From Euzebyales bacterium (GTDB taxonomy: Bacteria; Actinomycetota; Nitriliruptoria; Euzebyales; Egibacteraceae): DNA of 43,397 bases. Where the stretch lies: contig JACDBB010000104.1 of assembly GCA_013695145.1 (NCBI GenBank), positions 1 through 43,397 of the forward strand. The letters run 5' to 3'. Shown here one piece after another: positions 6,584 to 9,099 of this stretch (the first letter of the stretch is position 1; each line of letters begins with the position of its first letter). Both the position numbers and the translations under genes were made by a program. The notes beneath the pieces are model-generated. The model searched no databases, was not told the DNA's origin, and saw only the letters and a program-made list of their open reading frames with translations.

Positions 6584-6633
6584 GGCCGGTCAGCGTACCC
6601 GGCCGGGTGGGTCCGCCGGATACGCTGCCGCGC

Positions 6634-7581
6634 GTGACCGACACACACCAGCGGGCCCCGATCCGTACGACGTCCGCGGCGGTTCTCGCCCACTACCTGC
6701 GCGGCTGCGCGATGGGCTCCGCCGACATCGTCCCCGGTGTCAGCGGGGGGACCGTCGCGCTGATCCTCGGTATCTACGAGCGGCTGATCGGCTCGATCCG
6801 CGCCGCGGCCTCCGTGCCCCTGGCCGCCGCGCGCGGCGATCGCCGCCGTGCGCGGTCGTTGCTCCGGGAGGTCGAGTGGGCGCTGGTGCTGCCCCTCGCG
6901 GCCGGCATCGCCAGCGCGCTGGTCGTCGGCGCCGCGGTGATACCGGGGCTGATGGAGCGCCACCCGGAGGGCAGTCGCGCGCTGTTCTTTGGACTGATCG
7001 CCGCCGCGCTGCCGATCCCGTGGCGACGCGTCCGGGCGCGGAGGGCGTCGGTGTACGGCATCGCGGCGATCGCGGCGGCCGGCGCGTTCGCGCTGGTGGG
7101 CCTGCCGCCGGCGGAGCTCGCCGAGCCTGCGCTGCCCCTCGTGTTCGCGGCCGCGAGCGTGGCCATCGTCGCCATGATCCTGCCCGGAGTCAGCGGGTCC
7201 TTCCTGCTGGTGATCATGGGCATGTACGCGCCCACGCTGGCCGCGGTCAACGACCGCGACCTCGTCTACGTCGCCGTGTTCGCGGCGGGCGCCGTCGTCG
7301 GGCTGGGGCTGTTCGCCAGACTGCTCGAGTGGCTGCTCGCCCACCGCCACGACGCGACGATGGCCGCGCTGGTGGGGCTGATGGTCGGGTCGCTGCGCGC
7401 GCTGTGGCCGTGGCAGGACGCCGACCGCGGCCTGCTCGCCCCGCCGGCGGATGGCTCGGCGTGGACCGTCGTCGGCATGGCGGTGCTCGGCTTGTCGCTC
7501 ATCACCGTCCTCGCGCTGGTCGAGCGCCGCCTCGACGGCGCCGACGAGGCGCCGGCACAGCGGCCGGCACAGCGGCCGTGA
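6634..7581 (+). CDS. DUF368 family membrane protein
   Basis: A 315-residue polytopic membrane protein. It has the two diagnostic DUF368 motifs: MGSADIVPGVSGGTVALILG near the N-terminus and ILPGVSGSFLLVIMGMY in the middle, which look like an internal duplication. DUF368 members have been tied to polyprenyl-phosphate (C55-P) recycling across the membrane (PopT-type), so a lipid-carrier role is likely from family knowledge, not from this sequence. GTG at 6634 is preferred; a GTG at 6607 in the same frame would add nine residues. The stop overlaps the GTG of the next gene. Confidence 0.88.
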   Translation: MTDTHQRAPIRTTSAAVLAHYLRGCAMGSADIVPGVSGGTVALILGIYERLIGSIRAAASVPLAAARGDRRRARSLLREVEWALVLPLAAGIASALVVGAAVIPGLMERHPEGSRALFFGLIAAALPIPWRRVRARRASVYGIAAIAAAGAFALVGLPPAELAEPALPLVFAAASVAIVAMILPGVSGSFLLVIMGMYAPTLAAVNDRDLVYVAVFAAGAVVGLGLFARLLEWLLAHRHDATMAALVGLMVGSLRALWPWQDADRGLLAPPADGSAWTVVGMAVLGLSLITVLALVERRLDGADEAPAQRPAQRP

Positions 7582-8192
7582 CCCGTGATTGGGCCGCGTG
7601 GCGGCAGGCCGCGGTGTCGCACCTGGCCCCGACCGCGCGGCCGCGCGCGTTGGCTCCGGACCTGCGGCGCCCGCTGGATCCAGCCGAGCTCGCCCGCCGC
7701 CTCGCGTCGTCCGGCGTGGACTGGGTGCTGGTGGGCTCGTGCGTGCTGGTGCTGCACGGCGCGCGCTTGGAGCCCGGGGATCTCGACGTCGTCCCGGACC
7801 GCGACCCAGCCAACCTGGCGCGGCTCGCTCGGCTGCTCGACAGCCTGGGTGCGGTACCCGCGCACGTGCCCGGGTGGGAGCACACCCTGACAGTGGCGGA
7901 ATGTCGCAGGTGGACACCTCGGACCGCGGCTGTGACCAACCTCGATCACCAGTTCGTGACGGCGCACGGACTACTGGACATCGTGCCGCTGCTTACGGGC
8001 GCCTACGAGTCGCTCGTGCGCGGCAGCGTGGCGCTCGACGCCTGGGGGACCCGCGTCCGCGCCGCCGACGCGGTCGCGATCGCCACCGACATCGCGACCA
8101 GGACCCGTGCGAAGGACCCAGCGCGGAGGGCCGAGGCCGAGCGGATCCTGCGTGTCGTACGTCCGGATGCTGATAGGATCCAGAGAAGATAG
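7578..8192 (+). CDS. Nucleotidyltransferase-like protein
   Basis: A 204-residue protein whose GTG start overlaps the DUF368 stop (GTGA). The central stretch WVLVGSCVLVLHGARLEPGD followed by LDVVP matches the GS-x(n)-DxD pattern of minimal nucleotidyltransferases, including the AbiEii/MNT type. A later acidic position (LLDIVPLL) could supply the third metal ligand. The arginine- and lysine-rich C-terminus (TRTRAKDPARRAEAERILR) is typical of this fold's final helix. Whether it modifies a tRNA, a protein or a nucleotide cannot be told. It stands 26 bases ahead of the next gene on the same strand. Confidence 0.65.
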   Translation: MTRDWAAWRQAAVSHLAPTARPRALAPDLRRPLDPAELARRLASSGVDWVLVGSCVLVLHGARLEPGDLDVVPDRDPANLARLARLLDSLGAVPAHVPGWEHTLTVAECRRWTPRTAAVTNLDHQFVTAHGLLDIVPLLTGAYESLVRGSVALDAWGTRVRAADAVAIATDIATRTRAKDPARRAEAERILRVVRPDADRIQRR

Positions 8193-8218
8193 ACCAGTGC
8201 GGACGGATCGGAGAGGCG

Positions 8219-8695
8219 ATGGAGGTCACGCGCACCGTCGCGGGCCAGTCGTTCGCGTTCAGCGCGGCCGAGATCGAACAGGTGATGGCGGACGATCTCC
8301 CCGACCCTGTGCGTGAGCACTACGTGGTCATCGCCGGTCGCCGCTTCCCTCCCAAGCAGGTGCTCGCGAGAGTCACCGGGCTGGACCGCGCCGACTTCAC
8401 CACCCATCAGGCGAGGCGGATCCTCCAGCGCGCCGGCTTCGTTGTCGGGAGGCGGGCTCGCGGTGACGCCCCGGTTGAGTCCCGCCGCCCGGATTGGCCC
8501 CATGGCGGGCGTGAGGCCGACCTCCTGCGTCCGTACCGCGGCCGCTGGGTCGCCCAGCGCGACCTGGAGGTGCTGGTCGCCGCTGACGACCCCCGTGATG
8601 TGGTGCGTTGGCTGCACCGCCATGACGTGAGGGGCGCGCACGTCTACCGCGTTCCGGCCGGCCAGGGCGAGACCGATCTCATCGGACCGCGATGA
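8219..8695 (+). CDS. ScoMcrA-N-like plus DUF5678-like two-domain protein
   Basis: A 158-residue protein with two small parts. Residues 15-80 (YVVIAGRRFPPKQVLARVTG and FTTHQARRILQRAGF) strongly resemble the N-terminal head domain seen in ScoMcrA-like modification-dependent endonucleases, but no nuclease domain follows. Residues 100-150 (LLRPYRGRWVAQRDLEVLVA and the following helix) resemble DUF5678, which in other prokaryotes is encoded beside retropepsin-like proteases. That is exactly the context here: its TGA overlaps the ATG of the retropepsin gene. The domain assignments are recalled by pattern and not checked by a profile search. Function unknown; a role in substrate or nucleic-acid recognition is a guess. 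Confidence 0.7.
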   Translation: MEVTRTVAGQSFAFSAAEIEQVMADDLPDPVREHYVVIAGRRFPPKQVLARVTGLDRADFTTHQARRILQRAGFVVGRRARGDAPVESRRPDWPHGGREADLLRPYRGRWVAQRDLEVLVAADDPRDVVRWLHRHDVRGAHVYRVPAGQGETDLIGPR

Positions 8696-9099
8696 GGCTG
8701 CCGTTCCGCGAACTGCCCGACGACGCCGGAGGGACACCACGTCCGGTCTTGGGCGTCTGCCTCGGCGGCGACGAGCACGTCCGCTTCGACTGCCTGCTGG
8801 ACACCGGAGCGGTGCACAACCGCTTCGGGTCGTGGGTGGCTCAAGTGCTCGGCATCGAGTCCGAGGAAGGGCAGCGCCAGCGGTTGGCCGTCGGCGGTGT
8901 GGTCGTCGACGCCGTCACGGTTCCACTGCGGCTGTCCGTGGGCGAGTTCACCTGGCAGGCGCCGGTCTCCTTCTGCGACCCGTGGCCGTTCGGTTTCAAC
9001 CTCCTGGGCCAGGAGGGTTTCTTCCGCTTCTTCCGCGTCACGCTCGCCGCCGCGCGCTACACGGTCGAGATCGAGCCCGACCGTGGCCCGGTGGCCTGA
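8692..9099 (+). CDS. Retropepsin-like aspartic protease family protein
   Basis: A 135-residue single-domain protein. The motif CLLDTGAVHNRF near residue 37 provides the DTG catalytic aspartate of retropepsins. The later FNLLGQEGFFRFFRVTL is the usual hydrophobic 'LLGxxGFF' hallmark of the second half. Such short forms are expected to be active as homodimers. No signal peptide is visible, so it is likely cytoplasmic. The ATG at 8692 overlaps the stop of the DUF5678-like gene, supporting co-translation and a physical link between the two products. Confidence 0.8.
   Translation: MRLPFRELPDDAGGTPRPVLGVCLGGDEHVRFDCLLDTGAVHNRFGSWVAQVLGIESEEGQRQRLAVGGVVVDAVTVPLRLSVGEFTWQAPVSFCDPWPFGFNLLGQEGFFRFFRVTLAAARYTVEIEPDRGPVA

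Follow-up and report, generated by a model that had tools for sequence, protein, structure and literature searches.

A ScoMcrA-type head and a DUF5678-like domain joined in one protein and translationally coupled to a retropepsin-like protease: a candidate toxin-antitoxin-like or regulatory module of Actinomycetota

What might the head domain of a modification-dependent restriction enzyme do in a small protein that has no nuclease and is encoded directly before a protease? The question is raised by a locus of an Euzebyales bacterium, lying in a window (the whole stretch of DNA analysed, 43,397 nucleotides) that forms contig C220 in a draft genome of 3.33 Mb. A reading made from the sequence only had described here a compact cassette of three open reading frames, and their coordinates and spacing were confirmed. 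All lie on the forward strand: a nucleotidyltransferase-like gene (7578-8192, 204 aa, GTG start), then, after a gap of 26 bases, the gene of a 158-aa protein, MID (8219-8695), and that of RET, a retropepsin-like aspartic protease of 135 aa (8692-9099), whose start overlaps the MID stop by four bases (ATGA, 8692..8695). MID consists of a ScoMcrA-head-like N-terminal domain (residues 1-80, 8219..8458), a variable linker (about residues 81-96, 8459..8506) and a DUF5678 domain with a G-x-W-V-A motif and a C-terminal tail (residues 97-158 and the stop, 8507..8695).

MID and RET share about 50-62% protein identity with their relatives, and in three pairwise comparisons the MID gene differed at 89-98 third, 38-52 first and 41-47 second codon positions; this conservation at the protein level identifies both as genes. 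Since it favours MID and RET, a long antisense open reading frame at 8003-8740 is unlikely to be a real gene. The nucleotidyltransferase-like gene, which had been counted as a member of the cassette, had a homologue in none of 26 related loci, which rules it out as part of the module. Its family is present in 23 of 66 genomes of the class, with eight matches in the source genome; its start overlaps the stop of a VCA0040/DUF368-type gene upstream (6607-7581), and its product gave nothing above cut-off against Pfam.

The related loci come from a scan of 84,980 species, one genome for each, in which five MID sequences and two peptide patterns served as queries, a procedure that reaches close MID relatives only. 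The 26 loci belong to Actinomycetota (24, including L051, whose assignment was checked) and Dormiibacterota (L046, assigned by record title, and L047, by taxonomy), and among them are metagenome-assembled genomes (MAGs) of Euzebyaceae, Egibacteraceae and Nitriliruptorales. A RET match lies directly downstream of MID in 25 of the 26; the sole exception, L063, carries a broken MID copy. The four-base overlap recurs in 19 of 21 measurable loci, a count that leaves out five in which a gene is broken or partial; the exceptions are L049, with a 5-base gap, and L055, whose value of -31 is an artefact of automatic start choice. L047 retains the 3' part of RET only, L059 ends at a contig edge, and frame-split genes (RET in L062, MID in L048 and L064) may be errors of MAG assembly. 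The genes flanking the pair differ between loci, and the neighbourhoods are unrelated. Strong MID matches with an adjacent RET occurred in 6 of the 66 class genomes (G000, G005, G006, G008, G019 and G026), and the distribution is therefore patchy; weak matches (E between 1e-5 and 1e-2), among them several that look GntR-type by eye, were discarded. The pair was absent from viral contigs, MID had no match in phage records, and plasmids yielded no RET and, for MID, two head-only matches. MID and RET are a real two-gene module, conserved in other genomes as the earlier reading required, and two small overlapping genes in a fixed order are a type II toxin-antitoxin-like feature.

The assignment of RET at 8692-9099 to the retropepsins held. 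It scored 25.7 bits with Pfam Asp_protease_2, above the cut-off of 24.3, and both of its motifs are intact, the catalytic D37-T38-G39 (8800..8808) and the hydrophobic-hydrophobic-Gly motif L104-L105-G106 (9001..9009). In an alignment of 21 relatives D37, G39 and G106 are invariant, and position 38 is T or S. The predicted model (pLDDT 91.6) is a single-domain retropepsin fold, for which Foldseek returned 127 matches at E of 0.001 or below, including SIV and HIV proteases (SIV protease at E 5.2e-5) and Rickettsia APRc. The fold and the DTG motif are shared with two bacterial proteins, RimB and APRc (5c9f), whose descriptions, in the parts accessible to us, name no DUF5678 or head partner.

The head of MID was more elusive. 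Plain Pfam matched no head model, and the NCBIfam SCO5918 family (NF038312) gave E 4.9e-10 and 39.4 bits, below its cut-off of 60. The AlphaFold model of MID is confident in the head (pLDDT 92-96 by blocks), and the top two PDB rows in Foldseek were both ScoMcrA (5zmm), with poor E-values of 0.71 and 0.80. VIA-align superposed 55 residues of the MID model on 5zmm_E at 2.6 Å with Z 6.7, the next entry reaching 2.8; the list after ScoMcrA includes ArlR DNA-binding domains at Z 2.3-2.4, too weak for use. Because a VIA-align Z below 8 may reflect a mere common arrangement, an independent profile test was made against nine ScoMcrA-type heads, namely a Streptomyces orthologue (L150, 1088 bits to 5zmm_A) and eight from plasmids (a further plasmid head was left out of the set), with 60 column-shuffled controls for each comparison. 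By hhalign the head family reached 92.3% (P 5.7e-7, score 39.8; shuffles at most 18.4), a broader head alignment 95.3% (score 46.6; shuffles at most 22.0) and the whole MID family 88.7% (score 40.3; shuffles at most 20.0). The SCO5918-type subset alone scored lower (50.0%, score 27.3), and an unrelated alignment, that of RET, scored 15.2. As the scores of the head and MID alignments exceed all shuffled controls, homology of the MID head to the ScoMcrA head, which the sequence-only reading had proposed, is well supported. The link comes from profile-profile comparison and fold; a PDB sequence search with MID and the head profiles did not reach ScoMcrA, and a search of 246 genomes with one ScoMcrA head gave no match, which carries little weight, since searching with a lone sequence is insensitive.

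In the accessible text of its description, the ScoMcrA head is called a small, flexibly attached domain without a known function (PMC6224610). Five of the eight plasmid heads sit in proteins annotated as HNH endonucleases. No HNH match was found in 24 members of the MID family at E up to 10, in keeping with the claim that the 158-aa MID carries no nuclease. All 20 MID-RET pairs compared have a net basic head and a net acidic RET. Between the domains of MID the linker is predicted to be disordered (pLDDT below 50 at residues 83-94), and it varies in length and sequence among 24 relatives. The domain company of the head fits nucleic-acid binding, without proving it, and the head may act as a sensor.

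The C-terminal domain followed a similar course. Pfam DUF5678 (PF18929) matched MID at E 0.061 and 13.6 bits, below the cut-off of 23.2. With hhalign the domain aligned with 11 DUF5678 proteins taken from retropepsin or DUF5678 loci at 97.5% (P 5.3e-12, score 58.3), the best of 60 shuffles scoring 14.6, and a relative with the same head and DUF5678 architecture (G102) matched DUF5678 at 26 bits, above the Pfam cut-off. The proposed profile check of MID was accordingly negative for both domains with plain Pfam and positive for both with hhalign on family alignments. The earlier reading had named beforehand two findings that would count against it, no profile match and no conservation of the pair; both analyses were run, and it survived them.

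That DUF5678 habitually accompanies retropepsins was borne out from both directions. Among 149 Actinomycetota genomes, the locus of 12 out of 17 DUF5678 places also gave a retropepsin match (weakest E 0.0033), one protease being common to two of the 12. A search from the protease found 18 RET-family places in 17 of 396 genomes, and a DUF5678-type open reading frame lies directly upstream in 17 of the 18: in seven MID-RET pairs and in 10 of the 11 other loci, where it was recognised by a short motif. In the remaining locus (L184) no DUF5678 partner was detected. Elsewhere most DUF5678 partners lack a recognised DNA-binding N-terminus, and many consist of DUF5678 alone. Retropepsins of this kind are usually paired with DUF5678, and the N-terminus joined to it is interchangeable. 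In 20 MID-RET pairs, a small sample with related rows, the distances of DUF5678 and RET were correlated at r 0.82, those of head and RET at 0.65 and those of head and DUF5678 at 0.61; the partial correlation of DUF5678 and RET given the head was 0.71, that of head and RET given DUF5678 was 0.33, and this difference kept its sign in 98.2% of the 500 column bootstraps. DUF5678 tracks the protease more closely than the head to which it is joined, a result that is supportive, not decisive. Two further retropepsin partners of the DUF5678 type (L178:1875-2735 and L177:203-1474) have long N-terminal regions with no convincing Pfam name.

The source genome itself contains a second protease module, in which an antitoxin-type DNA-binding domain takes the place of the head (L107:1064-1845, on G000:C151). 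Its 135-aa partner protein combines a FitA-like RHH domain (30.8 bits, cut-off 27) with DUF5678 (21.2 bits, cut-off 23.2), and the partner gene overlaps by four bases that of a 125-aa retropepsin (gag-asp_proteas, 37.9 bits, cut-off 28.2). A homologous pair in G005 has a disrupted first gene, and its DUF5678 scores 25 bits, above cut-off. The same RHH query picked up a FitA-type gene in G040, and the open reading frame after it looks by eye like a PIN toxin; within one class of bacteria, therefore, the same kind of antitoxin DNA-binding domain is found ahead of a nuclease in one instance and ahead of DUF5678 and a protease in another. Plasmids yielded neither the L107 partner nor the protease encoded with it. 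FitA/VapB-type modules have the gene order and four-base overlap of MID-RET; they encode a PIN nuclease, whereas MID-RET encodes a retropepsin and has the head in place of RHH. Toxin- or antitoxin-type genes are neighbours of few loci, 3 of 26 (PIN on both sides of L060, a Gp49/HigB-type gene at L059 and HTH_3 at L057). Upstream operator palindromes did not exceed chance in 25 loci, which disfavours simple autorepression.

We tentatively read MID-RET as a DNA-tethered, DUF5678-docked aspartic protease with a toxin-antitoxin-like or regulatory role and a head that binds or senses DNA, and give this reading a little less than an even chance. A toxin-antitoxin-like logic is suggested by the upstream partner of putative DNA-binding type, the translationally coupled enzyme and the patchy distribution in unrelated contexts. 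Against the reading stand the absence of upstream palindromes, the many DUF5678 partners with no recognised DNA-binding N-terminus, and L184, where a partner was not detected. DUF5678 would bind RET as a docking, inhibiting or presenting partner, RET would be a cytosolic, dimeric retropepsin with protease activity, and the ScoMcrA-type head would place the complex on nucleic acid. Loss or cleavage of the partner, or its binding of a ligand, might let RET act on a substrate, possibly the disordered linker of MID. A bolder proposal seems doubtful to us: that MID-RET belongs with toxin-antitoxin or abortive systems as a relative built on a protease, in which a retropepsin in the place of the effector would be held by DUF5678 behind a swappable nucleic-acid-binding front, so that the same head, as a sensor or tether on DNA, could drive a nuclease or a protease.

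The arrangement could also serve anti-phage defence, the head recognising foreign or modified DNA and releasing RET on host or phage proteins, with the protease replacing the nuclease. The homology of the head to ScoMcrA and to the plasmid HNH-type proteins, the patchy distribution and the broken copies of MID (L048, L063, L064) and RET (L062) agree with this. However, most genes within 4 kb of the pair are of housekeeping type (Pfam, first 25 of 165 families), and PADLOC matches are scattered over 131 neighbours, the commonest model occurring in 4 (first 25 of 43 families; raw counts, not set against random regions); MID and RET themselves have no PADLOC match, and the viral contigs and phage records named above argue in the same direction. 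A defence function is possible but unsupported, and we consider it quite improbable. Of the sensor-plus-protease arrangement in defence or toxin-type regulation once envisaged for this locus, the toxin-type half is strengthened by the FitA-like sister module; neither the neighbours nor PADLOC support enrichment in defence islands.

By analogy with RimB, the pair might instead be a non-toxic switch of regulated proteolysis, in which RET would cleave MID, acting as a DNA- or RNA-binding regulator, or trim a host protein. RimB is a bacterial retropepsin that, in the available text of its description, works with operon partners and trims a ribosomal protein (PMC11957791); the predicted disorder of the linker would suit cleavage of MID, and head-only genes of Streptomyces lie, by eye, near a cold-shock-protein gene. 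A fixed housekeeping target is argued against by the patchy distribution and the unconserved neighbours, and we hold such a switch to be unlikely. Hardly credible is the notion that unrelated small genes merely co-occur and that their domain resemblances are accidental: plain Pfam does leave both MID domains below cut-off, but the pair is kept in nearly every locus and both domains score above all shuffled controls, and chance co-occurrence is refuted by the conservation data.

As far as our searches show, the parts of MID-RET belong to known families, and their combination and the sister module are undescribed; a literature search for DUF5678 with retropepsins, or for a retropepsin toxin-antitoxin pair, found no description. 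To our knowledge, characterised bacterial retropepsins are few and their regulators mostly unknown. MID-RET can be tested as one unit because it has a defined partner domain in DUF5678, conserved translational coupling and interchangeable N-termini. Should RET be the toxic half, a protease would occupy the place usual for nucleases such as PIN toxins. Other DUF5678-retropepsin pairs have the DUF5678 partner directly upstream, as in MID-RET; in them the head is absent.

For the head, the closest comparison is ScoMcrA, a type IV restriction endonuclease (PDB 5zmm) whose N-terminal head is homologous to that of MID. Unlike ScoMcrA, MID lacks the sulfur-binding, SRA and HNH domains and has DUF5678 and a separate retropepsin in their stead, and it offers a nuclease-free setting for finding what the ScoMcrA head binds. 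In the SCO5918 family of Streptomyces (NF038312) the same domain stands alone. We looked at nine stretches of about 14-16 kb around such head-only genes (L082-L090, e.g. L085:8361-8678) and found no RET match in them; the head-only genes lie, by eye, near a cold-shock-protein-like gene, and the loci also hold a gene of about 500 aa that we took for a putative RNA helicase. Further settings of head-like domains were seen. In one 244-aa protein (L131:1009-1740) a head-like domain comes after DUF6884 (40.5 bits, cut-off 30). On a Nocardioides plasmid (L137:3968-4741) the head precedes a nuclease-like domain (UPF0102, 21.2 bits, cut-off 23.6), and on a Rhodococcus plasmid (L138:3353-4318) it precedes a different C-terminal domain, in a gene adjoining an Mrr_cat gene. 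Thermus plasmids encode relatives of the nuclease-like domain of L137 that carry a MarR-annotated N-terminus instead of the head.
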